In this document: positions 3,365-28,409 of the stretch, one piece after another | Numbering within the stretch: the stretch's first letter is position 1 | How the letters are laid out: every line of letters starts with the position of its first letter | IMG/VR virus record: IMGVR_UViG_3300025508_000113 | Location: 1-29,157 of that record | Strand: one strand, 5' to 3' | Source: a virus | Length of the DNA: 29,157 nucleotides | Position numbers and translations under genes: made by a program | The notes under the pieces: generated by a model | What the model was told of the DNA's origin: nothing | Seen by the model: only the letters and a program-made list of their open reading frames with translations | Databases searched by the model: none

Positions 3365-3916
3365 ATGGCATGTGATATTACAAGCGGCTTTTCACTAGCG
3401 TGTAGAGATAATACAGGAGGAATAAAAAATATTTATATTCTTTCCGGATCAGTTTCTTCCGTAGTAGAAAGTTCAGAAGGGTTAATTAGCGCGTTATCAG
3501 GTAGCGGTGTCTTTTATAAGTTTGAATTGACTAAAAACACTGGAGACTTTACAGAGACTCCAACAGTAAGTTTAGAAGCTGGTACAGTATTTTATGATCA
3601 AATACTTAACGTAGCATTTCACAAACTTCAATCGTCAATTAGAAATCAGGTAAAAGTCTTAGCTCAAAATCCAGACCTTAAAATCGTTGTTGAAACAAAC
3701 AATGGTGTAGAGACTCCATATACAGGGAGATTCTTCTACGTAGGGAATAGAAGAGGAGCTACTTTATCAGGAGGAGCAGGAGCAACAGGTACAGCATTTG
3801 GAGATGCTAACCAGTACGCTTTAGCTTTCCAAGGTATGGAACCTGAACCAGCAGAAGAGATTTCAACTTCTGACGGTACTTTAGCAGTCGCACTATCTGG
3901 AATAACAGTAGGCTAA
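3365..3916 (+). CDS. Probable major tail tube or other abundant virion protein
   Basis: The 183-residue product begins MACDITSGFSLACRDNTGGI, a start I associate with structural proteins placed next to the capsid gene in phages of Bacteroidota. The body is rich in Ser, Thr, Gly and Val and appears beta-stranded, with one amphipathic stretch (YDQILNVAFHKLQSSIR) at about residues 76-92. It sits between a stem-loop behind the capsid gene and a strong terminator, so it may be made at high level together with the capsid protein. A tail tube subunit is my first reading, and a head decoration protein is the alternative. No enzymatic motif is seen. Confidence 0.5.
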   Translation: MACDITSGFSLACRDNTGGIKNIYILSGSVSSVVESSEGLISALSGSGVFYKFELTKNTGDFTETPTVSLEAGTVFYDQILNVAFHKLQSSIRNQVKVLAQNPDLKIVVETNNGVETPYTGRFFYVGNRRGATLSGGAGATGTAFGDANQYALAFQGMEPEPAEEISTSDGTLAVALSGITVG

Positions 3917-9674: not shown

Positions 9675-11642
9675 CTAAGCATACTTAAAAGTATAACCAT
9701 TCCAACTATCTTTATTTCCTTTTAAAATTTTTGCTATAGTACAACGGTTAATTATACCCTTAAAAGCTTTACTAGCTTGTGTATAAGAATCAAAATTAAG
9801 GTGTTCTTTAGTCTCAACATTTATAGCAGTTACTGGCATTTTTCTAGCACTTCCTCTTCCTCCAATTACTTTTTTGTAATTCTCTTTATCATTAAGAATT
9901 AAGTAGGTTGCTGCTTTAGGGCTAACTTGATATAGTTTTTCTCCTGGTTTTAAAGAATTATACAAATCCCAATATTGTTTAATTCTAGCTTGCTTACCAC
10001 TTTTACTTTGATAAGTATATTTAAAATGTTCATATACTTCTTCTATAGCTTTTTTATAGTTGTGATGTCTAAGCCAGTTCATTAATTTATAATCATTTTT
10101 ATAAAATACTCTATAATCAGTATACTTCTTAATTTGTTTCATTGTATCTTCCAAATTTCTATTATTGTTAGGAATAGTCATGTTAAATAAAGTTTCTCTA
10201 ACTTTACCAATAGTAGTCCAAGCTACAGTACTAAACATATCGTCTTGTTTAGCTAATACACTCTTAAAAAAGTTCATATCTAAAGGTAAGTCAATCATCT
10301 CATAATTATAAACTGATCTCTTTCTACCAGGAGTTTTACAACCACCGTCTCTATTAGGATTAGTTCTTCTAGGTACAGTAACAGGTATTCTCATATCGTT
10401 AAAGTTTCTACCGTTAAACTTAGAGTACCATTCTCTATCTAATAAAAGTAAAGCACCTTTCATAATAACAGTATAGTAACCAGCATCTTTAGAGTTAGAT
10501 ACTTTATAGAAATACTTTCTTTTTTTAGCGTCAACTTTAGATACCCTGAACAATCTAGCCATCATTTGAAGAATAGAGTTAAGGTTTCTAGTCATAGTAA
10601 AGTCAATAGCATTATAAAGTTCGGTATAAGACCAACCCATTCTACCTCTGTTTACAGAAACTAATACTCTTACATCGTTATCTTCTTTAAACTTATCCAT
10701 AAGAGAAGAGTCATCATCGTTCTTACTGTGAGATACTAGTACACCATTTTCTAAACCGTCAAAGGTTCTAAGTACTTCAGCAAACTTATTAGCTTGTTTA
10801 ATTGAGTTAGCCCATATAATAGTCTTATCTAAATGCTTAAAGAACTTACCAGCAACATCGTTAGTAAGTCTGTTTACGTTCTTAAGACTCTTTATAGGGT
10901 TTTTAAGTTTTTTCATCATACCTAAAATAACTTTCTTAAAAGAAGCTTCGTTAGCTAATCTAGCTTTAGCTATAGCAGTTAAGGTTAAGTTATCATTAGC
11001 GTTATAATCTTCCTCTTTAAAGTCATAGTAAGAAGAAACAACATGAACTTCAGTATCAGCAATTCTACCTTCGTCATATAAATCCATTACAGGTACAAAG
11101 TGCATATGGAACCCACCTTTTAAAATAAAGATAGAAGGAGTACCAGTCAATAGTAACTGCTGTTTAGGTTGAGTTTTCTTTATAATAGTTTTTACAGTCT
11201 TAGCATAGTACCATACGTGAGCTTCGTCAACAATCAGTTTCTCTACTTTAGGTAAAATATCAATACACATACTAATAGTCTGCGGTAAACAAACAATTAC
11301 TTGAGCGTCTGAATCTACAGCATCTCTAAGCTCATCACAAGTCTTACAGACTACATACTTAAAGTCAGGATTAAAATCTATAATCGAATCTTCGAAGTTA
11401 GATCTTAAGTTAGTCTGAGCAGAAGGTATAATAATAGTCTTCTTGTTTTTGTTAGATTTATCCATATAGAATAAGTTTAACAACATAATAGTATAGAAAG
11501 TTTTACCTGAAGAAGTACCGGCAGCTAATACTACCTTATCTTCGTTAAGTATCTTTTCATCTACTAATGCATCCATTTGCCATTTTACCTCATCGATAAA
11601 TGGTCTTGCTTTTAACATCTTTTTTAAATTTTTTAATCTCAT
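9675..11642 (-). CDS. DEAH-box superfamily 2 helicase with NUMOD-like C-terminus
   Basis: The 655-residue product has the ordered motifs of an SF2 helicase. Walker A GTSSGKT is at residues 42-48, the DEAH box at 139-142 (LIVDEAHVWYY), motif III-like TGTP at 166-169, and a motif VI-like LQMMARLFRVSK at about 357-368. The second RecA domain includes VSVNRGRMGWSYTEL. It should couple ATP hydrolysis to movement on or remodelling of DNA, probably for replication or recombination. The last 50 or so residues (INVETKEHLNFDSYTQASKA, then a TIAKILKGN helix and GYTF) look like a NUMOD-type DNA-binding module, usually found on homing endonucleases. It is encoded leftward with the small gene at 11645, two bases upstream. 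No polymerase or primase was found in the contig, so this may be the main replication enzyme. Confidence 0.8.
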   Translation of the reverse strand: MRLKNLKKMLKARPFIDEVKWQMDALVDEKILNEDKVVLAAGTSSGKTFYTIMLLNLFYMDKSNKNKKTIIIPSAQTNLRSNFEDSIIDFNPDFKYVVCKTCDELRDAVDSDAQVIVCLPQTISMCIDILPKVEKLIVDEAHVWYYAKTVKTIIKKTQPKQQLLLTGTPSIFILKGGFHMHFVPVMDLYDEGRIADTEVHVVSSYYDFKEEDYNANDNLTLTAIAKARLANEASFKKVILGMMKKLKNPIKSLKNVNRLTNDVAGKFFKHLDKTIIWANSIKQANKFAEVLRTFDGLENGVLVSHSKNDDDSSLMDKFKEDNDVRVLVSVNRGRMGWSYTELYNAIDFTMTRNLNSILQMMARLFRVSKVDAKKRKYFYKVSNSKDAGYYTVIMKGALLLLDREWYSKFNGRNFNDMRIPVTVPRRTNPNRDGGCKTPGRKRSVYNYEMIDLPLDMNFFKSVLAKQDDMFSTVAWTTIGKVRETLFNMTIPNNNRNLEDTMKQIKKYTDYRVFYKNDYKLMNWLRHHNYKKAIEEVYEHFKYTYQSKSGKQARIKQYWDLYNSLKPGEKLYQVSPKAATYLILNDKENYKKVIGGRGSARKMPVTAINVETKEHLNFDSYTQASKAFKGIINRCTIAKILKGNKDSWNGYTFKYA

Positions 11643-11644
11643 AA

Positions 11645-11881
11645 TTATTTATTTAAATATTGTTTTAAGTGACTCTCAGTAAACTCTAGGTTCATTATAG
11701 CTTGATGAACTTCTGCAAGTATCTGATTATATTGACGGTTAGTCAATTCTAATGGACCAGATTCTGAACCATTAAGTGTTAGTAAATCTAAAGTAGCAGC
11801 TAAATTATGAGCTGATTTTGCAATAGACTTAATGTTTTTAAATTCTCTTTTTAATCCTTCTTTGTATCGTACTTCTACCAT
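11645..11881 (-). CDS. Unknown 78-aa protein, first gene of the leftward unit
   Basis: The product is short, charged and predicted mostly helical (REFKNIKSIAKSAHNLAATL, and QILAEVHQAIMNLEFTESHL). There is no membrane segment, cysteine cluster or recognised motif. Its stop lies two bases before the helicase start, so the two are surely co-transcribed, and it may be a helicase partner or regulator. The start at 11881 follows an A/T-rich leader. I do not recognise the family. Confidence 0.65.
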   Translation of the reverse strand: MVEVRYKEGLKREFKNIKSIAKSAHNLAATLDLLTLNGSESGPLELTNRQYNQILAEVHQAIMNLEFTESHLKQYLNK

Positions 11882-12085
11882 AACCTTAATTTTAGTTTAA
11901 ATTAACAGCAGGTAAACTATTCACCCGCTTTATTAATATAAAGATAAGAAAAATATATCGACTAGGCAACTATTTAACAAATTATTTTTTTTTAGGGTTT
12001 ACGTATTTAAGAGCTATGTATATATAGACGATAGTTGCATTTACGTCAAATATATCGTATATTAATAATATAAAGAAAAGTAAAA
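11882..12085. promoter_or_regulatory. Divergent intergenic region
   Basis: These 204 bases separate the leftward helicase unit from the rightward HNH gene and must hold both promoters. Visible elements are an imperfect inverted repeat at 11908-11928 (GCAGGT and ACCCGC, one mismatch, nine-base loop) in the leader of the leftward unit, a run of nine T around 11983-11992, and a minus-strand TATATTTG at 12047-12054 that fits the Bacteroidota -7 consensus TAnnTTTG. No matching -33 element is evident. No clear plus-strand promoter was recognised. Confidence 0.4.
12047..12054 (-). promoter_or_regulatory. Candidate Bacteroidota -7 box (TATATTTG)
   Basis: On the minus strand the bases read TATATTTG, matching TAnnTTTG of the Bacteroidota housekeeping promoter. 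It would give a leader of about 160 bases before the 11881 start. A TTG at the expected -33 spacing is missing, so the call is weak. Confidence 0.22.
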
Positions 12086-12787
12086 ATGAAACAAAAAGAA
12101 GAATGGAAAGCAGTACCTAATTACGAAAGATACTTAGTGTCAAACACAGGTAGAGTTATATCGACTCTTAAAAATCGAACCAAAGAACTTAAAGCTCAGA
12201 AAGATGCTATTGGCTATCTACATTTTCGTTTGTACCCTACAGAACCAATTCATGGTTTCTACCCTAATGGAAGGGGAAAGAAGCCTAGGTTATTTAAAGC
12301 GCATAAACTTACCTTAGAGACGTTCTGTCCTACCTTAGACACGACGTTAGAGGTTAATCATAAAGACGGTAATAAGCATAATAATAGCTTAGATAATTTA
12401 GAGTGGGTTACCAGACAGCAGAATATACAACATAGCTGGGATTTAGGTGTGAGAGCTAATATGCATACTAAGGTAGCAAGAGTGAATAGAAAACCTTTAG
12501 TAGCTATACATCGTTCAGGTCAAGAAAGATACTTTAGTGGTAATATAGTTGCTAAGTTTGGTTTAGGTTGTAGTCTGGGTACTATAGCCAATGTTCTAAG
12601 ATCAGGAAAGGAAATAGAAAGAGGAGCAGCTAAAGGTTATACTTTGGTTAGAATATCAGAATTACCTAATGATTGTCAATTTGAAGACGTTCCAGACTTA
12701 CAAGAAAAGATAGAAGCACACAATGCAAAGTACTTTAGTAAAAACTGGAAACAAAAAAAAATTAAAAAAAGTTTAGGAAATAGTTGA
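12086..12787 (+). CDS. HNH endonuclease with NUMOD4 domain
   Basis: The 233-residue product has a NUMOD4 module at the N-terminus (EEWKAVPNYERYLVSNTGRV, residues 5-24). An HNH_3-type nuclease follows at about residues 70-112, with H in AHKLTLETF, NHKDGNK and NSLDNLEWVT. A C-terminal NUMOD1-like segment is at about 133-192 (VAIHRSGQERYFSG and GTIANVLRSG). This is the architecture of free-standing homing endonucleases of phages, which nick or cut double-stranded DNA at a target site and spread their own gene. It stands alone between the divergent intergenic region and a stem-loop, which fits an inserted mobile gene. A role in packaging is less likely because the terminase is 4 kb away. Confidence 0.85.
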   Translation: MKQKEEWKAVPNYERYLVSNTGRVISTLKNRTKELKAQKDAIGYLHFRLYPTEPIHGFYPNGRGKKPRLFKAHKLTLETFCPTLDTTLEVNHKDGNKHNNSLDNLEWVTRQQNIQHSWDLGVRANMHTKVARVNRKPLVAIHRSGQERYFSGNIVAKFGLGCSLGTIANVLRSGKEIERGAAKGYTLVRISELPNDCQFEDVPDLQEKIEAHNAKYFSKNWKQKKIKKSLGNS

Positions 12788-16532: not shown

Positions 16533-17768
16533 ATGAGTCATGTTACTTTATTTACACCCTATGATGCTCAACAGGCATTTATAGATAAATTTGTTACTAC
16601 CGAAGATCTATTCGGAATCCTTGTTGCTCCTCGCGGAAGCGGGAAAACCTTAGCAGCAATAAACTTTGCTTTATATTGGGCACTACAAAAAAAGAACCAA
16701 AAGCTAGGATGGTGTAGTCCTACATTTTCACAAGCTAAGTCTGTGTTAGATCAAATAGTTAAAGCAGCACCTGATCTAATAGTATCAAGTAACAGAATGG
16801 AAGCGGTAGTAACGCTAATAAACGGTTCTAGTATAAAGTTTCTTAGTAGTGACTCGGCAGATAATATTAGAGGTTTTAGGTTTACACATCTTATACTAGA
16901 TGAAGCAGCGTATATTAAAGAGAGTGTTATTAGTACTATACTATTACCTACTCTTAACCCAAATGGAATTAAATGCCTACTAGTAAGTACACCAGCCGGT
17001 AAGAATCATTTCTTTAGTTGGTATATGAAAGAAGATGTTATAAGCCATAGAATTACATTAGAGGAATGTCCATACATTAGTAAAACGTTATTAGATGAAG
17101 CTAAAAGCTCATTACCGGCAGATATATATGCTCAAGAGTATCTTGCTTCTTTTGTAGATAGTGCTAATGATGTATTTAAATCAATAGAGAAAGTAGCCTT
17201 TGTAGGAGAGTATAGAAGAGGTGGAGATGTATACGTAGGAATAGATACCGGACTATCGGATGATGCTTCGGTTATGACTCTTATCTCTCCCATAGGTAGA
17301 GTAATGAACGTAGTGAGTATATCACAAACAGATATCAATACGGCAGCGACGTTATTCTTAAAGGAGTTACAATCATACAATGTAGTTGGCGGCTATATAG
17401 AAACGAACGGAATAGGAAGAGCCATGTATGACTTAGTTCAACCTAAGCATAGACGTATACAAAGATTTGATACTAACCAAAATAACAAAACAGAGTTAGT
17501 AAGAAAACTAATAGCCGATATAGAGACAATGACTATAGAGTTACCATCAGCTGATTTATGTCCTCAGCTACATAGTGAATTTGCTACATATACTTATAAA
17601 CTTAGTCCTACTGGTAAATTATCATTTGGTCATAGTAGCGGTGCTCATGATGATTATATCGATAGTCTTATGCTTGCCAATTATAGTAGAGTTAAATTTA
17701 TGGAAAGACGTCCTATTAGAGTAAGCGGAATAAAGAATGTAAAGCCTTCATTTGGACGACCATTATAA
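16533..17768 (+). CDS. terL: Terminase large subunit
   Basis: The 411-residue product carries both halves of the packaging motor. In the ATPase, Walker A APRGSGKT is at residues 32-39, Walker B LILDEA at 120-125, and the coupling motif VSTPAG at 151-156. In the RNase H-like nuclease, the first acidic strand is YVGIDTGLSDD (about 233-243), the second YIETNG (about 287-292), and the third HDDYIDS (about 372-378). These residues bind metal for cutting concatemeric DNA at headful or cos ends. It sits with the putative small subunit and precedes tail genes, while the portal lies far away. The length is at the short end for the family, yet all motifs are present. Confidence 0.93.
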   Translation: MSHVTLFTPYDAQQAFIDKFVTTEDLFGILVAPRGSGKTLAAINFALYWALQKKNQKLGWCSPTFSQAKSVLDQIVKAAPDLIVSSNRMEAVVTLINGSSIKFLSSDSADNIRGFRFTHLILDEAAYIKESVISTILLPTLNPNGIKCLLVSTPAGKNHFFSWYMKEDVISHRITLEECPYISKTLLDEAKSSLPADIYAQEYLASFVDSANDVFKSIEKVAFVGEYRRGGDVYVGIDTGLSDDASVMTLISPIGRVMNVVSISQTDINTAATLFLKELQSYNVVGGYIETNGIGRAMYDLVQPKHRRIQRFDTNQNNKTELVRKLIADIETMTIELPSADLCPQLHSEFATYTYKLSPTGKLSFGHSSGAHDDYIDSLMLANYSRVKFMERRPIRVSGIKNVKPSFGRPL

Positions 17769-17807: not shown

Positions 17808-18551
17808 ATGAAAGAGACTGTAAGATTAAAACTAGAAGTACCTGAATTCTTAACAATACAAAAGTATTGTGATATGAACGCTTATAAAGGACAATCCAAG
17901 TTCGGAAAATTAGTTCATGCTGTATCCGTACTAACCGGAGAGAGTTTAGCATCTGTAAGACAATGGGATGTAGAAAGCTTAACTAGAGTAAGCAATATAT
18001 ACGCTAATGTAGCCGATCATAAAGAACTATTTCATCCTATAATAGAATGGAAAGGACAATTATACGGTTACTCCAGTATAAAGAAATGTTCGTTAGGTGA
18101 GTATATTGACTTAGAGAACTATTCAGCAGATATGGAGAACTCTATGCATAAGGTAGCTGCTATACTATACAGACCTATAAAGAAGCATAGATTCGAAAGT
18201 ATTATGTTTGGATTAAAACAAGGCATACGTACTGCTATAAATAAAGTAGATAATGTATTTGATTGGTACGACGTAGAGAAGTACGATAGTGATAAACGTC
18301 GAAGGACAGAAGAAGAGTATAGAGACTTTCCTGTGCATTTATTCTTAGGAGGGTTAGGTTTTTTTTTGAGCAGCGCAAACCTATATTTGAATCGTATAGC
18401 ATATTTGAAAAAGCAGATAACGAAGATGGAGATGGAGGAGATGAACTCGAGGATCCTAGAAAATCCTTTGGTGAACACTGGGGATGGTTCGGTACAATTT
18501 ACCAACTCTCTAAAACCAATATACTATCAATCACAGGAGACAAGTCAATAA
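17808..18551 (+). CDS. Putative tail assembly chaperone, frame-0 product (247 aa)
   Basis: The first 186 codons read as a normal protein (QLYGYSSIKKCSLGEYIDLE and VAAILYRPIKK are the most family-like parts) up to FPVHLFLGGLGFF. The frame then crosses nine T at 18359-18367 and continues 61 codons with a sequence that looks out of frame. The -1 frame from the same point is open and protein-like to 18664, giving a 285-residue product. Paired short and frameshifted products are the hallmark of tail assembly chaperones, which load onto the tape measure before tube assembly. The gene follows the terminase and opens the tail module. The alternative is a single-base error or mutation in the T-run, in which case only the 285-residue form exists. 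Confidence 0.6.
   Translation: MKETVRLKLEVPEFLTIQKYCDMNAYKGQSKFGKLVHAVSVLTGESLASVRQWDVESLTRVSNIYANVADHKELFHPIIEWKGQLYGYSSIKKCSLGEYIDLENYSADMENSMHKVAAILYRPIKKHRFESIMFGLKQGIRTAINKVDNVFDWYDVEKYDSDKRRRTEEEYRDFPVHLFLGGLGFFLSSANLYLNRIAYLKKQITKMEMEEMNSRILENPLVNTGDGSVQFTNSLKPIYYQSQETSQ
18347..18367 (+). promoter_or_regulatory. Candidate -1 programmed frameshift site
   Basis: The heptamer T TTT TTT at 18359-18365 is in the right phase for a canonical X-XXY-YYZ slip (frame-0 codons at 18360 and 18363). It belongs to a run of nine T. AGGAGGG at 18347-18353 lies five bases upstream and could act as an internal Shine-Dalgarno, though at a shorter spacing than in dnaX. TAGGTTT at 18355-18361 can pair with AAACCTA at 18377-18383. 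Confidence 0.5.
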
Positions 18552-18664
18552 CAGATTTGAATCTCTTATTTAGTTTAACATTTTTAGAAATAGAAAAAGA
18601 CTATAATGAAGAAATCGAAAACGCGAGGAAAAAAAGCCTCCAACAGCAGAGACTTAGATATTAA
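18365..18664 (+). CDS. -1 frame extension of the tail assembly chaperone (about 99 codons)
   Basis: Reading from codon 18365 in the -1 frame gives FEQRKPIFESYSIFEK, then an acidic linker (DNEDGDGGDELEDP), then a convincing folded segment with GEHWGWFGTIYQLSKTNILS and LLFSLTFLEIEKDYNEEIEN, ending at TAA 18662. The last part resembles C-termini of phage tail chaperones (Trp-rich helix, short linker, long helix). It has no plausible independent start and joins smoothly to the upstream gene at the T-run. It overlaps the start of the 18606 frame by 59 bases. Confidence 0.6.
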   Translation, partial: FEQRKPIFESYSIFEKADNEDGDGGDELEDPRKSFGEHWGWFGTIYQLSKTNILSITGDKSITDLNLLFSLTFLEIEKDYNEEIENARKKSLQQQRLRY

Positions 18665-18833
18665 AGTTGAAAAGAAGTACCCTATGATTAATCGTAAAGA
18701 GGTACAAGCAGAATTAGATAAAGATAAAAACATAAGAAGACTACTAGATGTAGAAGCTTATAACCTAAACCAGATAGCAGGTATGTTAATGCTACCTCTA
18801 GAAAGAGTTAAAAAAGTAAAGAATGAGCGTTAA
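18606..18833 (+). CDS. Unknown small basic protein (75 aa; start uncertain)
   Basis: From ATG 18606 the product begins with a very basic stretch (MKKSKTRGKKASNSRDL) that overlaps the -1 chaperone extension by 59 bases. If that extension is real, ATG 18684 (MINRKEV) is the alternative start, giving 50 residues. The C-terminal part (LLDVEAYNLNQIAGMLMLPL, then ERVKKVKNER) looks like a small helix-turn-helix. It overlaps the next gene by 11 bases. The function is unknown. Confidence 0.5.
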   Translation: MKKSKTRGKKASNSRDLDIKVEKKYPMINRKEVQAELDKDKNIRRLLDVEAYNLNQIAGMLMLPLERVKKVKNER

Positions 18834-19293
18834 TAGAATTACACGTAATGTACGTTACGAAGAAATAGTAAACCTAGTACAGTCAAGATGTGATGCACAT
18901 TTAGCTATAGCATCTTTTGAAACAGGCACTATAGACTTCTTAGATGCATCAGCTGTAAATAGAAAATACCCTTATATATTTCTTAGACCAATGAATTCGT
19001 TTTATGTAGATAGAGCTAGAACATTATCTTTTGAAATGTATAGCTTAGATCAACCTAAGAATCAATCACAAAGTCATTTAGAGTTAATGTCTGATACTGA
19101 AGGATACATATATGATATTATGGCTTACTTTAACTACGGACCTACTGACATACAACAGAACTACGAAATGTTACTTAACGATTGTTCTCCTGTTAACGAA
19201 GGATTTCAAAATAGAGTATTCGGATGGGTTGCTAATATAGACATAGTAACACCATTTAATCTTAACTACTGCGTATTTCCAGAATATCCATAA
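18823..19293 (+). CDS. Neck or tail-terminator-like protein
   Basis: The 156-residue product has the pattern of tail completion or terminator proteins found in this position: an N-terminal helix, a strand YPYIFLRPMNS (about residues 49-59), a second strand LSFEMYSLD, a helix with SDTEGYIYDIMAYF, and a last strand pair including VANIDIVTPFNLNYCVFP. Such proteins cap the tail tube and join it to the head. It is followed after one base by an HK97 gp10-like gene, which supports a neck role. The family is recognised from overall pattern only. Confidence 0.55.
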   Translation: MSVNRITRNVRYEEIVNLVQSRCDAHLAIASFETGTIDFLDASAVNRKYPYIFLRPMNSFYVDRARTLSFEMYSLDQPKNQSQSHLELMSDTEGYIYDIMAYFNYGPTDIQQNYEMLLNDCSPVNEGFQNRVFGWVANIDIVTPFNLNYCVFPEYP

Positions 19294-19294
19294 T

Positions 19295-19774
19295 ATGTTA
19301 AAAGACACGTTAAAGCAATTAGCCAGACTAATATCTAGGAAAAAGAAAGAGATGGTTGGATCTCTCTTTTCTAAAGGTACCGGTAGACTAAAACGTTCTA
19401 TAAAAGAAAAGCTAGTAGGAGATGATAGTAAAGGCTTTGAGATAAGGTCTCAAATGGTAGATTATGGTTACTACCAAGATAGTGGTGTTAAAGGAGTAAG
19501 TGAAGGTAAGTGGAAGAATAGAGTAAGAGCTAATAACAACTCTCTATATGCACCAGGACAATTTAAAGCACAAAGCAAAGTAGTAGGAGGTAATTTACCT
19601 TTTGCTGCTAGATACGTAATAAGAAGAATAGGACTAAAACCTAAACCGTTTGTAAAACCATCTGTATTAGATGTAATGAATAGAGAAGGATTTGATATGA
19701 TTGCAGATGCAACAGCAGAAGATGTAGCATTAGAGTTTACTAATACATTTAAAAACGCTAAGATACAAGGATAA
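19295..19774 (+). CDS. HK97 gp10-like tail completion protein
   Basis: The 159-residue product contains the GxLxxSI element (TGRLKRSIKEKL, about residues 29-40), a central strand pair with MVDYGYYQDSGVKG (about 54-67), and a C-terminal LPFAARYVIRRIGLKPKPFV stretch (about 101-120). These are the features of HK97 gp10 or Mu-like tail component families, in which a Gly- or Tyr-rich loop precedes a closing helix. It would form the ring joining head connector and tail. The stop overlaps the next ATG as TAATG. Confidence 0.7.
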   Translation: MLKDTLKQLARLISRKKKEMVGSLFSKGTGRLKRSIKEKLVGDDSKGFEIRSQMVDYGYYQDSGVKGVSEGKWKNRVRANNNSLYAPGQFKAQSKVVGGNLPFAARYVIRRIGLKPKPFVKPSVLDVMNREGFDMIADATAEDVALEFTNTFKNAKIQG

Positions 19775-21306
19775 TGGCAATAACAATTTTAAAATATCCG
19801 ACAGACAATAATGGATTATCTCCTCAAGTATCTAAAGCTCCTTTAATATTTACTATTAGTTCATCTAATGTACCTCAATTTCAGTTTAGATATATTGCTG
19901 ATTTATACGAGAGTGGTAGTACTACAAGACTAGCAAGATTTAAGTATCCTCAGAATAGTTCAGGTACTGCTAATATAGACTTATCAAGACCCATAAATGA
20001 TTATATGGAGACTGATTACAATTGGGCTATTAGTGGTAGTCATATATATAGTAGTTCTTTAACTGCTAAAAGATTTCAAATAGAGTTTGGAGAAGAGTAT
20101 GGAACAAGTTACGATAGTGCTGTAACAGTATTTGCAAATCAAGCAGAGTGTCAACAATCTATGTTAAAAGGAAATATACAATATCCTTCGCCTTCTAACT
20201 TTGACGGTAATACAGGTCAAATAACATTAGCTACAAGCTCTTTACAGTTTAATTACTTACCTTATGCATGGAATCCTTCACAATCTGATAATGTAGATAT
20301 AGTAGCATATTCTGACGGTACTTTAACTAATAATCCTAATATGTTAAATAGTCCTGCTACTTCTAAGTACTATATAGAGCAAGATGTATTTTCAGGAGCT
20401 TTAAGAACTAACACTCTTGAAACGATATATGATACAAGTAGTATAGGATGGTATGTAGCGCAACCAATAGGTCATACAGATTTAGGTACAGAGACTTATT
20501 ATTCAGAATACCTTTCTGCCGGTAGTTATAATTTTACAAGAAATATTGTAATATATGACGATAATAATAATGTAATAGCAAGCGCTAGCACTACAACTAT
20601 TAACTTAGATAAACAAGCTTTATTATCTTTTCCAGTAGGTATGGAACAAATGGGTGGTATAGTAGACACCTCATCTGGTAATCCTATATCTAGTAGTGTA
20701 TCAAGTTCAGCACAGTGGAGTTGGTATCAAAGTAGCGTAAGAAAAGTTGGACAGTATAATGCTGGTTTTAATCATTACTATTACAACGAAGATAAAGGAC
20801 CGGAAACTATGTTTGCTAAAGATACAAGATTTATTAGTTCTTCTATTAGACCAGGACTATGGCAATCAGGTAAATTTTATCCAACTTACTGTAATGGTGA
20901 AAAGACTAGATTTGCATTTACTAATTCTTTTGGTTGTTGGGATTACTATAACGTATATATGCCTACTCGTAGAGTAACTAACATAGATAGGAAAATATAC
21001 GAACAAGAAAGCATAAACCTAAATGACCGTATTTATCAATATAACGTCTCTAATAGAGGTGAATTGCAATACTATACAGAATATACAGATCAATTTGAAA
21101 TAACGACAGATATAATTGACTCACAGGAGTCACAATGGTTAAAAGAGATGTTCGAGTCAAGTGAAGTGTATATACAAAGTGGTAGTGATTTTATACCAAT
21201 TAACATACTAAATAATACAGAGACTGTTATAAACGATACAGCAAGAAATAAAAATTACCAATATACTATAAGATACCAATTTAGTAATTTAAGAGAACCA
21301 AGATAA
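19774..21306 (+). CDS. Tail protein, paralogue 1
   Basis: The 510-residue product aligns by eye with the next gene's product in two blocks. The N-terminal one reads PQFQFRYIADLYESGSTTRL here and PQFQYVMDVYESGSTDLI there. The C-terminal one starts KTRFAFTNSFGCWDYY here and KVRFAFINKLGSWDYF there, and continues through SQWLKEMFESSEVYI versus NWLEELIESPSVYI. Most of the protein is beta-rich with many Ser, Tyr and Asn. No enzyme motif is evident. It probably belongs to the baseplate or distal tail, between neck genes and the hub-like protein. The ATG overlaps the preceding stop. Confidence 0.6.
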   Translation: MAITILKYPTDNNGLSPQVSKAPLIFTISSSNVPQFQFRYIADLYESGSTTRLARFKYPQNSSGTANIDLSRPINDYMETDYNWAISGSHIYSSSLTAKRFQIEFGEEYGTSYDSAVTVFANQAECQQSMLKGNIQYPSPSNFDGNTGQITLATSSLQFNYLPYAWNPSQSDNVDIVAYSDGTLTNNPNMLNSPATSKYYIEQDVFSGALRTNTLETIYDTSSIGWYVAQPIGHTDLGTETYYSEYLSAGSYNFTRNIVIYDDNNNVIASASTTTINLDKQALLSFPVGMEQMGGIVDTSSGNPISSSVSSSAQWSWYQSSVRKVGQYNAGFNHYYYNEDKGPETMFAKDTRFISSSIRPGLWQSGKFYPTYCNGEKTRFAFTNSFGCWDYYNVYMPTRRVTNIDRKIYEQESINLNDRIYQYNVSNRGELQYYTEYTDQFEITTDIIDSQESQWLKEMFESSEVYIQSGSDFIPINILNNTETVINDTARNKNYQYTIRYQFSNLREPR

Positions 21307-23294
21307 TGGCATATACTATAACACAGAAACCAACTACTCCTAATGCTGCATATACAAGACTTATGTATGTTGTATCAGGTAGTACCAATACTGCAAAACC
21401 TCAATTTCAGTATGTTATGGATGTATATGAATCTGGAAGTACTGACCTTATAAAGAGAAACTTTAGTCCAGTCAATCCAGCCGGTGTATCTGTATTTGAT
21501 CCTTCTAGAATTATACAAGGACGATTAAAAGAAGAATTTAGTTGGGATATTTCATATCCGCAACCTTATCTTTCTAGTAGTAAAACGTTTACATTAAAGT
21601 TTGGAGAAACCTACGCTACGTCAATCTCATCTAGTGCAGCAATAATAGATGACGTGCAACAGACTAATACAGAAGTATTTAGAGGAGTAGTTGAACCTAA
21701 TGCAGGAGCATTTGATTGGGATAGTAGTAGTTATGCTGTATTAAGCAATATGCCTGCTACAATGTCTATGCAAGAGAATGAATATTTAACTATAGGAGTG
21801 TATAATAACTCAGTTAACTCTATAAGCAGTAGTTTATATAGCGGCAGTACTAAGATTAATGAGATTAATTATAATATATCCGATAAATTTACTACCGTTC
21901 CTTTAAACCTTTTGCTTTCTGGTTCTTGGAACTATGCAGAAGTAAATGTAAGTAGTTCAATAGGTACACAAAGTTATAGATATGAAGCTAAAAAAGATGA
22001 TTGTAGAGAAAAAGTTAGGTTTGCCTTTATTAATAAATTAGGTTCGTGGGATTATTTTACTAATTTTAACCCGGTCCGCGAAGTTATTGAAGTTGAACGA
22101 GAGCAATATACTGCTGCTAGGGTGGATTATTCTAGTCTTACTTCTACTTATGATATAAGCCGAAGAGGAGTTAAAGATTATCACAATAGTACAGATAATA
22201 TATTTACTGTAGATACTGATTACTTGGATAAAGAAAATGCTAATTGGTTAGAAGAATTAATAGAATCTCCTTCTGTTTATATTCAAAGAAATCCTGGGGA
22301 TATGATTCCTATAATCATTACAGATAGCTCTTATACTGCAAATACTAATCAAGCAAGACAGAAAGTATTTAAGTACACTATAAACTTTAAACCAGCAAAT
22401 CAACCATTTGGTAATTGGATACCAGAGTATGAAAGCATAGTAAATGAAGCAGTTTATGATTTTAAGGTAAGGGGAGTAAGCCCTATATACTGGTGGGACT
22501 TTACTGAAAGTTATACTGGTAACTTAAGGTTTTCAAGTGGTAACGAAATATCTGAAATACAAAGTAAAGGTCAGTCACAAGAAATACTACGTACCATTAC
22601 TGCACAAGGTCAAAATAAACCAACATTTGACTCTATTAATAGGTTAAGTTTTTTTAGTGAAAGTCTAATGAGAATGAATGCGTTTGATACCGGTAGTTAT
22701 TTTGCTAATGATTTTAGTAATCCCGGCTTTCCAGCATCTAAAGACTTTACTCTAGTATCTTTTATACAACCAAATTTTGTAAATGCAACATCAGCATCTG
22801 CAGTAGTAAGTTTTTCAGATTCTAACACAGCTGCTGGTACATCTCAAGAAAACTATGTAATATTAACAAATAGTGGTTCTACTTCTATACAAGATGAGAG
22901 TGCCTATTACGGCGGTAGAACAGATGCTATTTTAAATATGAAAGCTATTGGATTTAATTCAGGACAGTATTATTCATATAGCGGTTCAAGTGATACAAGT
23001 CCTTGGCATTCTCAATTCTTTTTAGCTGAAAAAACAAGTGGTAGTGCGTTAATTGATTTTACTCAAACAAGGGATACTACTCAAAGCTTTTCTGGTCAAT
23101 ACTCTAACGGTACCTTGTCTAATAGTACTTACTTTACCTTAGGACAACCTGCTAATGGTGATGGAGAAGGAATATTAGGCTTTGCTCATGTTTTGCTATA
23201 CGATTTTATATTAAGTGATGCAGAAATGCAAGAAGTAATAGAAACATTTAAAAACTCACTACCTTACGGTTGGGAAGTTAATCCTACAGTATAA
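21306..23294 (+). CDS. Tail protein, paralogue 2, with C-terminal LamG-like domain
   Basis: The first 385 or so residues repeat the plan of the previous gene's product, so the pair arose by tandem duplication. From about residue 394 a second domain begins (YWWDFTESYTGNLRFSSGNE) and runs to about 655 with the LamG pattern: RLSFFSESLMRMNAFDTGSY, FTLVSFIQPNFVNATSA, QFFLAEKTSGSALIDF, and GILGFAHVLLYDFILSDAEM. This jelly-roll probably binds carbohydrate on the host surface. The gene overlaps both neighbours as TAATG or TAATGA. I infer a baseplate protein carrying a receptor-binding module. Confidence 0.6.
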   Translation: MAYTITQKPTTPNAAYTRLMYVVSGSTNTAKPQFQYVMDVYESGSTDLIKRNFSPVNPAGVSVFDPSRIIQGRLKEEFSWDISYPQPYLSSSKTFTLKFGETYATSISSSAAIIDDVQQTNTEVFRGVVEPNAGAFDWDSSSYAVLSNMPATMSMQENEYLTIGVYNNSVNSISSSLYSGSTKINEINYNISDKFTTVPLNLLLSGSWNYAEVNVSSSIGTQSYRYEAKKDDCREKVRFAFINKLGSWDYFTNFNPVREVIEVEREQYTAARVDYSSLTSTYDISRRGVKDYHNSTDNIFTVDTDYLDKENANWLEELIESPSVYIQRNPGDMIPIIITDSSYTANTNQARQKVFKYTINFKPANQPFGNWIPEYESIVNEAVYDFKVRGVSPIYWWDFTESYTGNLRFSSGNEISEIQSKGQSQEILRTITAQGQNKPTFDSINRLSFFSESLMRMNAFDTGSYFANDFSNPGFPASKDFTLVSFIQPNFVNATSASAVVSFSDSNTAAGTSQENYVILTNSGSTSIQDESAYYGGRTDAILNMKAIGFNSGQYYSYSGSSDTSPWHSQFFLAEKTSGSALIDFTQTRDTTQSFSGQYSNGTLSNSTYFTLGQPANGDGEGILGFAHVLLYDFILSDAEMQEVIETFKNSLPYGWEVNPTV

Positions 23295-26200
23295 TGATAA
23301 ACGATTTAATTTTAAGAGTAACATATGACGGAGTCGTAACTGACTTAGACGTAGATGGTGCTGTACCTTTAAGACTAGATATATCACAAGTTGATAATCA
23401 AGAGATAGGAGAAGTATTTGGAGTAAGTTCTCAAAACTTTAACCTACCGGGTACTAGTAATAACAATAAATTCTTTAATCATGGCTACTTAGAGTCTGCC
23501 ATAGATGTACCGGGTTTATATGATACTATAGACTGTAGTGTATTACGTAACGGAGAGACGCTCTTACAAGGTAATTTACAGCTAAATGAAGTAGTTACAA
23601 GTGATAGTGGATTTATAACTTACGATGTTACGGTTAGTAACAAAGTAGTAGAGTTTAACGAAGCATTAAAAGATAAGTTTTTCTTTGAAGCTAACTTTGA
23701 AGATTTAAATCATACATTAAATACAGATAACGTATTAGCAAGTTGGTTACCAAGAGCTTCAGCAACCTTTAAAGACGGAGCTATATTTTATCCTTTAGCA
23801 GATTATGGTTTTGATAATAGATTAGCTTTTCCTACTATACCAAGATTATCTGCCGATGGTAGTAACTTCGACGGTAGTAGAGTATCAGGAAGTAGTGCTA
23901 ACTCTGAAACACCTTTAACATTAGCTCAATTTTTACCGGCAATAGGAGTAAGAGAAGTATTCGATAAAATATTCGATCAAGCAGGATATGCTTATACAAG
24001 TAGTCTTATATCATCAAGTGAATTCGATGATTTATTTGTATTATTTAAAAACCAAGATCAATTAGGAGTCATAGCAGCAGGAGTAGACGAAGGTAATTTA
24101 TTTACCGGTAAAGTAGCTCCTATGTTTATTATACCTTCTCAAGCAGGAGGTTATTATAGTTCAACTGGTTTCTTACTTAATGTAAGTGGTTCAGTAACTG
24201 ACCCTGGTAGCAATTATAATACTGCAACAGGTATATATACAGCACCTAAAGATGGTAATTATAGTTTAAGTGCTAGTGTAGATTATACTAATGGTAATAA
24301 TAATCCTGTAGCAAACACTGGTTATTTCTTAGAGTTAGATATAAATGGTTCAAGAACAGTTATAGCAGAAGAAAGACAAACTAGTGCAACTAACGGTGAT
24401 ACGTTTACTTTAAACGGTGAATCTACAGTACTACTAAATCAAGGAGATGAAATAAGTTATTACTTTGTATTATCAAATCAAGGTAACCCAGATGCTACAG
24501 ATCCTATAGATATATTTGTTAGCAGTGGTTGGGATGTTACTGCCGCACCTTTATCTTATGCCGATTTACCGGTTAGTATGTCTTTGCAAATAGACGAAGA
24601 TGTAAAAACTATAGATTTATTTAAGGGGTTACTAACACATTTTAATTTAGTAGCTTATGCCGAACAAGAGCAATCTAAGGTAATAGCGTTAGAGACGTTC
24701 GATACATGGATGAGAAGCGGTGAAGTAAAAGATTGGACTGAGAAATATAATAGTGCTAAAAGAATATCAATAAAGAATCCTGTATCGGAAGAACCAAGAG
24801 AGTTAAGATTTGGTAACGTAGAAGATGAAGATAGAATCTCTAGATTAGCAAAAGATCAAACTCCTAACTTTCAATACGGTACTTTAAGAACTTTATCTAA
24901 TAGTAATTTAACGTCAGGAGAAAAGAAAGTAGAAAGTTCTTTCTCACCAACACCTTTAGCACCTGTTGTAACTTCTGTTACAGGATCAGATGGTGCAGTA
25001 ACGTTAGCATTTAACAATGAAGATGCTAGTAGATTTATAGTACCTCATTTTTATAAGTTTAAAAATAATGCTCAAGAGTCATTTAAGTTTAAACCAAAGA
25101 TAGGGTATAGAACTTACTATACGACAGGCGATAATAGACAGAGTGATTTATATGCACCTTCAGAACAATTTGTTTTGTCTGGTAGTAATAATTCTACTGC
25201 TTCTTTTATAGATTATAGTACGTTATCTAACTATAGAAACTACCCTGTAACTTCTTCTACTGAAGATTTACTTTTTAATTCTGCCTATAACAAGTTAAGT
25301 ACTAATACATCTTTATATCCATCTAGTGGTTCAAGTAACTTTAATAACTATTGGAAAAACTATATAGATAGTATTTACTGGGAAGACGGTAGAAAAGTAA
25401 CTATGGATTTATTCTTTAACGAGTATGAATACCAAGACATAAAATTAAACGATCAAATTATTATAGGAGATAATAGATATCGTATAAACAAAATAAAAGG
25501 GTTTAACTTAACCCGTAGAGATATAGTAACAGTCGAATTACTTAAATTATATCCAGTATATAGTCCTGTAATAGCTTCTGGTGAAGGTACAGTATGTCCT
25601 ACAGTAGAAACTTATCCTGCTAAAAACATACAATCTTCTTCTATGACTTTATCTGGTAGCTTATTAACAGTAGGTTCAGGGGTATTAGAAAAAGGATTTG
25701 TAGTTAGTACAACAGATAGTACTCCTACTATAGAAGAAGGAGCAACTAAATATATAGTAGCAGGTACAACAGCAGGTGAATACGATTATGACTTAACTGG
25801 ATTAAATGCTAATACAACTTATTATTACCAAGCATATGTTAGCTCTAGTCAAGAAGCTTGTGATGTAGCATACGGTGGTTCAGAAACAGAGACTACTTTA
25901 ACTGCATCTTTAGGATGTCCTGCAGTAACTACAGATAGTAGTTCAATACAAGGACCATATGCAGCTACTTTATTTGCTACAACTACAGCAACAGGTTCAG
26001 GTATAGTAGAAAGAGGATTTGTTATTAGTGCAACTGATAGTAGCCCTGAAATAGGTGAAACAGGAGTTAACAAGAAAGTAAATGCTACAGGAGGAACAGC
26101 TGAACCTATAGAGAGCTGGTCTAACGTTCTTACCGGTAGTGTAGATACTTGGTTATCTTGTAGTACTGCATATAACTTTAGAGCATATGTATCTTCTAGT

Positions 26201-26569
26201 GAGTGTTTAGAATACGGTAGTAACCTTACCTTTACTACTGCAAATTGTCCTACAGCTTCTGCAGAATGTAATGCATTTAGTGCTTCAAGTGAAACTAACT
26301 TTAATAATGCTTGTAGTGAAACAATTAGTCAAGTACTATATACTGACTATAGCGGTTCATGGCCTCCAACACAAGGATTCTTAGACGGAGGAGGTAAGAT
26401 GACAGTATTTATGAATAGTGGATGTAGTGTTGCTTCACCTAATACTTACTATGCATTCGATAGTGGTTCTGCAACAGGAACAAATGTTAATGCGTTCTTA
26501 AGAGTAGATGACGGAGTAGGATCTAATCCTGGAGATGTAATTTACATATACGACTGTGAAGGTCCTTAA
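23294..26569 (+). CDS. Large baseplate/hub-like tail protein with FN3-like repeats
   Basis: The 1091-residue product starts with a domain (LRLDISQVDNQEIGEVFGVS, then QNFNLPGTSNNNKFF) that I associate with distal tail or baseplate proteins of Bacteroidota phages. A central carbohydrate-binding-like beta module follows (about residues 275-420), then a hub-like region (about 425-765) with YQDIKLNDQIIIGDNRYRIN at its end. Two FN3-like repeats start with CP at about 768 and 875 and carry GFVVSTTDSTP and GLNANTTYYYQAYV, a form common in Bacteroidota surface proteins. A third Cys-containing terminal domain covers 985-1091. It likely sits at the tail tip and contacts the host. It overlaps the previous gene by one base. 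Confidence 0.6.
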   Translation: MINDLILRVTYDGVVTDLDVDGAVPLRLDISQVDNQEIGEVFGVSSQNFNLPGTSNNNKFFNHGYLESAIDVPGLYDTIDCSVLRNGETLLQGNLQLNEVVTSDSGFITYDVTVSNKVVEFNEALKDKFFFEANFEDLNHTLNTDNVLASWLPRASATFKDGAIFYPLADYGFDNRLAFPTIPRLSADGSNFDGSRVSGSSANSETPLTLAQFLPAIGVREVFDKIFDQAGYAYTSSLISSSEFDDLFVLFKNQDQLGVIAAGVDEGNLFTGKVAPMFIIPSQAGGYYSSTGFLLNVSGSVTDPGSNYNTATGIYTAPKDGNYSLSASVDYTNGNNNPVANTGYFLELDINGSRTVIAEERQTSATNGDTFTLNGESTVLLNQGDEISYYFVLSNQGNPDATDPIDIFVSSGWDVTAAPLSYADLPVSMSLQIDEDVKTIDLFKGLLTHFNLVAYAEQEQSKVIALETFDTWMRSGEVKDWTEKYNSAKRISIKNPVSEEPRELRFGNVEDEDRISRLAKDQTPNFQYGTLRTLSNSNLTSGEKKVESSFSPTPLAPVVTSVTGSDGAVTLAFNNEDASRFIVPHFYKFKNNAQESFKFKPKIGYRTYYTTGDNRQSDLYAPSEQFVLSGSNNSTASFIDYSTLSNYRNYPVTSSTEDLLFNSAYNKLSTNTSLYPSSGSSNFNNYWKNYIDSIYWEDGRKVTMDLFFNEYEYQDIKLNDQIIIGDNRYRINKIKGFNLTRRDIVTVELLKLYPVYSPVIASGEGTVCPTVETYPAKNIQSSSMTLSGSLLTVGSGVLEKGFVVSTTDSTPTIEEGATKYIVAGTTAGEYDYDLTGLNANTTYYYQAYVSSSQEACDVAYGGSETETTLTASLGCPAVTTDSSSIQGPYAATLFATTTATGSGIVERGFVISATDSSPEIGETGVNKKVNATGGTAEPIESWSNVLTGSVDTWLSCSTAYNFRAYVSSSECLEYGSNLTFTTANCPTASAECNAFSASSETNFNNACSETISQVLYTDYSGSWPPTQGFLDGGGKMTVFMNSGCSVASPNTYYAFDSGSATGTNVNAFLRVDDGVGSNPGDVIYIYDCEGP

Positions 26570-26594: not shown

Positions 26595-28409
26595 ATGGCA
26601 AGAAGTACAGTAAACGTAGACGTTCAGATTCAAACTAAGTCGATAGACCAGTTAGAAAAAGAACTACAAGGCATTAACGAACAGTTAAAACAAGCTGATA
26701 TTGGTAGTAAAGCATTTACTGAGTTATCTACTAAAGCACAAGGATTAACTAAAGAGTTAAATAAAGCTAACGAAGCAGCAGAAGGATTTACAGACGATAA
26801 GAAGTTTATGGCAGCCGATGGTGCTATTAAGGCTATGGCTGGTTCTGTAAGTGGTGTAGTAGGAGCATTAGGTTTATTAGGAGTAGAATCAGAAGCCTTT
26901 GGAGAGATGGAAAAGAAAGCAGCAAGTGCTATTGCTGTTGCCATAGGTGTAAAAGATATATCAGAAGGATTTAATCAATTAAGAAAATCTACTGTATTAG
27001 CTACAGCAGCTACTAAAGCTTATAATATAGCAGTAACTGCAGGTAATAAGATAATGAAGCTGTTTAATATTACAGTGGCTTTAAACCCAATAGGTGTTCT
27101 TATTGCAGCATTAGCAACCGTAGGAGGTTTAATTTATGCATTTAGAGATTCTATAATGGATACTATAAAGAATGCATTAGGTCCTTTTAAAGGTATAATT
27201 GATAAGATATATGGTGCATTTGTTTCTTTAGGAGAAGCATTAGGTATAGTAGATGATGCTCAGACTAAGCAAACTAAAGCTAACGTAGAAAGAATGGAGC
27301 AAGAGTTAGCCGTTGCTAATGCAAAAGGTGAGGCTACTCTACAGATGGAAAAAGATCTCTTATTAGAGAAAAGAAAGCTACTAGAAGAAGGCAGTGACGA
27401 ATATAAAGATAGTATTACTCAGGAATTAGTCTTAGATGCTCAAATGGCTAAGCAAAAAGAAGATTTATTTAAAGAGTCAGAAGCTAAGAAACTACAAATA
27501 CAAAAAGATAATGCTGATAAGTTAGAGGCACAAAGAAAAGATCAACTAGCTAAAGAGTTAGCAGAATATAAAGAGCATCTTAAAAAGATGACTGACCTAG
27601 ACATATCTAATATCGAAGAGTTAGGAGATATAAGAAATGAGTTCTTCGAAAAGAATATGGAGAAGGCAGTTACTGACGAAGAAACAAGAATAGAATTAGA
27701 TAGAAAAAAACAATTAGAAAGAATAGAAAACTTAGGATTAAACGAAAATTTAACTCGTCAGGCTATATCAGAAGTAAATAAGTACTATGATACTTTAGAC
27801 TTAGAAAGAATAAAAGCATTTGACGAAGAAAAAGCTAAAACGGAAGAAGAAGATGCAGCTAGATCAAAAGCAATTAAGTTAGAATCTTTACAAACAGCAT
27901 CTGAGTTATTTGGTCAAGAGACGGCATTAGGTAAAGCAGCATTACTAGCTAAACAGTTTTTATTGGCACAAGAAATGATCTTAGATATAAAAGGTACATT
28001 AGCTAAAGGTAAAAAAGCAGTAACTGACGCTGGTATTACAGGTGCAGGAGCTAGTACAGAAGTAGCAGGCTCTGTTGCTAAAGCAACCAATGTAGCACCG
28101 CCACCATTTAACATACCTTTTATTTTAACTGCTATAACTACAGGAGCAAGTATTTTAGCTTCAGTTAAATCAGCTATAGGTGCAACTAAACAAGCAGCAG
28201 GTGGTGCAGGAGGAGCAGGTGCTCCAGGATTAACTACACCTAATGTATCTGCCGCAACAGCACCGGTAGGACCTACAATTACTAATCGTAATGCAGCTCC
28301 ACAACCAAGTATGGTAAATCAATCAATGAGAGCTTATGTAGTATCAGGAGATGTTAACTCAGCTCAAGAAGCAGATGCAAGATTAAACAGAAGAAGATCT
28401 TTAGGATAA
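26595..28409 (+). CDS. Tail tape measure protein
   Basis: The 604-residue product starts with helix-rich repeats (LEKELQGINEQLKQADIGSK). Hydrophobic segments follow at about 75-100 (AMAGSVSGVVGALGLLGVE) and 155-185 (ALNPIGVLIAALATVGGLIY), and a long Lys/Glu-rich coiled coil at about 225-430. The C-terminal part is Ala/Gly-rich. These are standard tape measure features. At about 0.15 nm per residue the tail would be near 90 nm, suggesting a siphovirus or myovirus with a short to medium tail. It lies downstream of the baseplate-like genes and before the head protease, not directly after the chaperone candidate 8 kb upstream, which is unusual. Confidence 0.75.
   Translation: MARSTVNVDVQIQTKSIDQLEKELQGINEQLKQADIGSKAFTELSTKAQGLTKELNKANEAAEGFTDDKKFMAADGAIKAMAGSVSGVVGALGLLGVESEAFGEMEKKAASAIAVAIGVKDISEGFNQLRKSTVLATAATKAYNIAVTAGNKIMKLFNITVALNPIGVLIAALATVGGLIYAFRDSIMDTIKNALGPFKGIIDKIYGAFVSLGEALGIVDDAQTKQTKANVERMEQELAVANAKGEATLQMEKDLLLEKRKLLEEGSDEYKDSITQELVLDAQMAKQKEDLFKESEAKKLQIQKDNADKLEAQRKDQLAKELAEYKEHLKKMTDLDISNIEELGDIRNEFFEKNMEKAVTDEETRIELDRKKQLERIENLGLNENLTRQAISEVNKYYDTLDLERIKAFDEEKAKTEEEDAARSKAIKLESLQTASELFGQETALGKAALLAKQFLLAQEMILDIKGTLAKGKKAVTDAGITGAGASTEVAGSVAKATNVAPPPFNIPFILTAITTGASILASVKSAIGATKQAAGGAGGAGAPGLTTPNVSAATAPVGPTITNRNAAPQPSMVNQSMRAYVVSGDVNSAQEADARLNRRRSLG

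Follow-up and report, generated by a model that had tools for sequence, protein, structure and literature searches.

A conserved run of nine or ten T at the site of a programmed -1 frame change in a probable tail assembly gene of flavobacterial phages

Tail chaperone genes of phages are the textbook example of a protein ratio set by ribosomal frameshifting. In the G/GT gene of phage lambda, a long-tailed phage with a tape measure protein, the upstream ORF is made alone and, through a -1 ribosomal frameshift at GGGAAAG, as a fusion with a second domain. The hallmark of tail assembly chaperones of this type, in long-tailed phages, is a short form made together with a -1 fusion (PMC5009743). Transcriptional slippage genes—among them Shigella T3SS genes, Thermus dnaX, and IS transposases—carry about nine A or T inside the coding region, and the product made depends on how many bases the run contains (PMC5009743, PMC1088944). 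Slippage at nine A or T is efficient in bacteria, with an RNA:DNA hybrid of 9–10 bp (PMC5009743), and slippage-prone A and T runs are under-represented in the coding regions of AT-rich bacterial genomes (PMC1088944). The gene described here shares its two-product architecture with lambda G/GT and its run of about nine T with the slippage genes, for which we propose the same use of base number. Unlike the slippage genes, it is a putative phage assembly gene, conserved across distant phages.

The window, the whole 29,157-nucleotide stretch of IMG/VR virus record IMGVR_UViG_3300025508_000113 that was analyzed, comes from a phage whose hosts are marine bacteria related to Flavobacterium. The gene lies on the plus strand, as do its immediate neighbors and the probable tape measure gene, and follows that of the terminase large subunit (16533–17768), its conserved upstream neighbor. 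Frame 0 (17808–18551) opens at ATG 17808 and closes at a stop at 18549–18551; its 247 aa comprise a conserved N domain and a frame-0 tail, as judged from an AF2 model and a 75-member alignment. It reads GGT TTT TTT TTG at a run of nine T (T9; 18359–18367), the shift site, which holds an in-phase T_TTT_TTT heptamer (18359–18365). The -1 ORF (18359–18664, with TAA at 18662–18664) supplies the C-terminal domain of a fusion that has 285 residues under either route, an extra U in the transcript or a ribosome slip at the first heptamer. These coordinates, the T9, the phase of the heptamer, and the two product lengths are as originally predicted from the window. A small ORF of 75 aa (18606–18833), present only in close relatives, overlaps the end of the -1 ORF, and the locus comparison places a conserved gene with no assigned function downstream (18823–19293). 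The bare string T9 is found 3 times in the window, counting both strands, vs. 2.1 expected, and so is not rare; the site stands beyond chance because it is kept across homologues, not because the string is scarce. Another T9 (11985–11993) falls between a minus-strand gene block (9675–11881) and an HNH-like gene at 12086, outside ORFs of at least 60 aa.

In one sequence, a single-base change in a homopolymer gives the same picture as a programmed shift: a genomic indel, an assembly error, or a phase-variable run could have broken one frame in this record only. Homologues were collected from viral contigs, genome contigs, and annotated phages by peptide-pattern scans and a scan with the window protein; for either domain, N or C, the patterns avoided the T run. 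Both domains were present at 236 loci, or 198 distinct sites after duplicate removal, extending to ~20–25% identity. The set includes the cultured Nonlabens phages P12024L and P12024S, flavobacterial genomes, and one Flagellimonas onchidii genome locus; the genome-contig scan returned seven matches with a distant subfamily and none with the window's own subfamily. At all 198 distinct sites the N and C domains stand in a -1 relation, and the T run is kept at 9 or 10 with overlapping frames. A long form encoded in a single frame, which would speak against the predicted frame change, was looked for and found at 0/198. The -1 relation thus persists in cultured phages and in isolate and MAG contigs alike, and the sites with ten T come from a flanking substitution and still require a -1 shift. 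With two frames everywhere and no fused homologue, we reject the indel or assembly-error explanation for the family and give it next to no weight for this record. The frame change is real, and the homologue comparison strongly supports the original prediction that it is programmed.

Substitution patterns follow the change of frame. Across 80 related pairs, substitutions per frame-0 codon position (1/2/3) were 0.18/0.12/0.39 in the N domain and 0.12/0.28/0.17 in the C-only region, where the fastest position is the third of the -1 frame; the overlap (0.14/0.22/0.20) was intermediate. The pattern switches from frame 0 to -1, with a mixture between. The median length of open frame 0 past the run is 60 codons, which exceeds synonymous shuffling of the -1 frame (median p 0.005). 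Judged by openness and codon-position pattern, both frames code for protein, and the stretch read in both spans about 60 codons, in the window 18368–18548. This constraint on both frames also counts against an indel. The AF2 model of the frame-0 product (mean pLDDT 86.6) is structured to residue ~220, including a helix encoded after the shift site, and the -1 domain is predicted to be helical with moderate confidence. Lambda G/GT differs in both respects: The ~60-codon dual-coding overlap and the predicted structured frame-0 tail are features of the window gene.

Selection on the T run was examined across the same 198 distinct sites. Its length is 9 at 186 sites and 10 at 12, and runs of T7, T8, or more than ten T were found at none. 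The run occurs in three codon phases—NNT TTT TTT TTR/TTC (109 sites), NTT TTT TTT TNN (72), and TTT TTT TTT NNN (17)—each with an in-phase T_TTT_TTT, so that the extra Ts 5' and 3' of the heptamer number (0,2) at 109 sites, (1,1) at 72, (2,0) at 5, and (2,1) at 12. More T in the preceding codon goes with fewer in the following one, and the run length holds at 9 or 10. On the tree we count 8 phase changes and 4 length changes, vs. 29 and 19 changes in the two flanking residues, with no descent below T9. Lambda G/GT has a phased heptamer, whereas the window gene has a T9 whose length is conserved in any phase. We surveyed 1.08 Mb of further long ORFs from the contigs that carry the sites: T7 occurs 40 times, T8 6 times, and T≥9 not at all; an in-phase T_TTT_TTT is found in 27 of these T7/T8 runs, and Phe-Phe is written TTT TTT in 35% of cases vs. 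63% expected, i.e., it is avoided. The heptamer is therefore tolerated in other genes and T≥9 is not. Separately, several distant relatives carry a second T8/T9 run just 5' of the frame-0 gene start (L085:9952–9960; L079:2705–2712; L086:5582–5589).

Sequences that might stimulate a ribosomal shift were not conserved. The original prediction held that AGGAGGG (18347–18353) and a TAGGTTT/AAACCTA inverted repeat (18355–18361/18377–18383) may modulate the shift, and neither suggestion survives the comparison. The Shine-Dalgarno (SD)-like AGGAGGG arises from Leu-Gly-Gly/Ala codons and is probably Gly-Gly coding only: SD-like elements appear at a minority of homologous sites, where Gly codons happen to yield one, Gly codon choice shows no bias to GGA, and the ribosomes of Bacteroidia, the hosts' group, do not recognize SD sequences (PMC9976891). 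The inverted repeat is likewise not conserved and gives no structural signal; no conserved downstream RNA structure was found among the homologous sites (mean z 0.12; window z +0.76), and Rfam had no match for the site. We reject both as stimulators.

Because the run is T9 or T10 in all phases, T≥9 is absent elsewhere, heptamers are tolerated, and stimulators are not conserved, what selection seems to keep is the length of the homopolymer, at 9–10 bp that of an RNA:DNA hybrid. A run of 9–10 kept in any phase fits polymerase slippage better than a 7-nt ribosomal heptamer, and from this comparison we favor transcriptional slippage, with reasonable though not high confidence, over ribosomal -1 frameshifting. 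Under the favored mechanism, RNA polymerase would slip on a T9 as long as its RNA:DNA hybrid. Most mRNAs would carry U9 and yield the 247-residue protein, in which a helical frame-0 tail follows the N domain. A transcript that gained one U (or lost two) would bring the -1 frame into ordinary decoding and give the 285-residue fusion, in which the helical C domain takes the place of the frame-0 tail. The sequences show the -1 relation, dual coding, and a rule of at least nine T in three phases, with no conserved stimulator; RNA polymerase as the slipping enzyme, and with it the control of product ratio, is what we infer from them.

Several observations weigh on the ribosomal side. Each T≥9 run also holds an in-phase T_TTT_TTT, so ribosomal slippage on the heptamer is possible too, and this much of the original slippery-heptamer proposal stands at 198/198 sites. 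In this alternative the ribosome would shift on U_UUU_UUU unaided by stimulators, as it does in several chaperone genes of tailed phages, and in the commonest phase a second heptamer, U_UUU_UUA/G, would overlap the first (T9 plus TTR). Ribosomal shifts are the usual case in the chaperone genes studied; their efficiency is often low, and some do without stimulators (PMC5009743). Some of the T conservation reflects Phe and Leu codons read in both frames: With CTN as the Leu codon, the -1 product of a (0,2)-phase site would have Ser in place of Phe. The phase variants, moreover, go back to few independent events (8). Against a ribosomal shift, a heptamer requires just seven T, yet T7 and T8 are absent from the sites; the length stays at nine or more even after a phase change that leaves a single heptamer; other genes tolerate T7/T8 runs with an in-phase heptamer; and neither an SD-like element nor an RNA structure is conserved. 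We consider a ribosomal shift possible but rather unlikely, and not the best fit to the data. Transcriptional slippage and ribosomal frameshifting may both contribute.

The function of the gene was approached through architecture and context. A short product and a frameshift fusion arise from one start, with both frames coding, as seen by sequence comparison. The phages are long-tailed and have a tape measure protein: P12024L gp50 matches tape-measure PHROGs, and the window's probable tape measure protein (26595–28409) weakly resembles gp50 through C-terminal similarity (E 8e-4). In nearly all of the larger loci, the gene lies directly 3' of the large terminase and 5' of conserved tail genes; unlike lambda G/GT, it adjoins the terminase and not the tape measure gene, and it has no detectable sequence homology to lambda G/GT. 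The usual, though not defining, place of a chaperone gene is directly upstream of the tape measure gene; here five genes (18823 to 26569), three of them long, intervene, and no other chaperone candidate lies directly upstream of the window's tape measure gene. Two consecutive long genes in this interval (19774–21306 and 21306–23294) have similar N-terminal sequences, perhaps reflecting a duplication, and in many relatives their best matches stand in the opposite order.

Homology searches gave the family no functional annotation in Pfam or PHROGs. Pfam had no match, for single proteins or for all alignment members; PHROGs returned the unannotated phrog_32199 for part of the family and phrog_166 ("tail protein") in 2/75 members. 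PDB sequence and fold searches yielded nothing convincing; the weak fold match to the HK97 chaperone 2ob9 (Z 3.9 over 68 residues) and weak BFVD matches named tail assembly or tape measure chaperone (E 0.1–2) are hints at most. With no library name for the family and weak fold hints, we do not claim family membership by homology. A different virion or assembly protein that needs a short and a long form, compatible with either shift mechanism, would account for the missing Pfam match, the partial and unannotated PHROG, the weak PDB fold matches, and a position beside the terminase instead of the tape measure gene. It sits less well with the G/GT-like architecture in long-tailed phages with a tape measure protein, with the lack of another candidate directly 5' of the tape measure gene, and with the fold hints toward chaperones, and we regard it as improbable. 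Because the gene combines a short form with a -1 fusion in a long-tailed phage where no rival candidate directly precedes the tape measure gene, its most likely role resembles that of the lambda G/GT tail assembly chaperone, a conclusion drawn from architecture and context, not homology. The role originally predicted is thus plausible on those grounds, and homology does not show it. If it follows lambda gpG/gpGT, the tape measure protein would be coated by the short form, and the fusion, the rarer product, would bring in the tube protein. Elsewhere in the window, a 183-aa protein matching the unannotated phrog_19091 (3365–3916), encoded between a presumed capsid gene and the portal, is possibly the tail tube protein.

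Taken together, we lean slightly toward the view that a large Bacteroidota phage family sets a tail-assembly protein ratio by RNA polymerase slippage on T9/T10, possibly since host ribosomes cannot use SD-like stimulators. If so, the conserved switch to polymerase slippage would mean that selection keeps the ratio and that the machinery is exchangeable. A literature search covering a minority of subscription journals found no paper that ties transcriptional slippage to tail assembly chaperones. An annotation rule follows: In flavobacterial phages, a T9 between two small hypothetical genes 3' of the terminase marks one two-product gene.

Nonlabens phages P12024L and P12024S offer such a case. 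Their gp40/gp41 (L150:12001–12695) and gp38/gp39 (L151:2001–2695), respectively, are homologous to the window gene and likewise adjoin the terminase; unlike it, they are ~24% identical to relatives of the window's family and are annotated as two separate hypothetical proteins. Read directly, the P12024L site is a T9 (CTT TTT TTT TAT) with a -1 ORF, and each pair is probably one two-product gene. We discounted an A9 near 30534 in Flavobacterium phage 6H, which is the leader of a start codon. In Flavobacterium phage 11b, gp38 and gp39 (L241:17864–18525) overlap, and a -1 shift at a homopolymer of nine bases links them, as in the window; unlike the window's, the run is A9, lies directly before the tape measure gene, and belongs to a protein family unrelated by sequence search, for which no homologue was found except in Cellulophaga phage phi10:1. 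In this distant relative (L244:3001–3700), an unannotated chaperone-like ORF between the tail protein gene gp084 and gp086 ends at an A8, and the ORF after it stands in a +1 (or -2) relation, which requires a different slip. These loci suggest that homopolymer slippage may be used more widely in flavobacterial phages.
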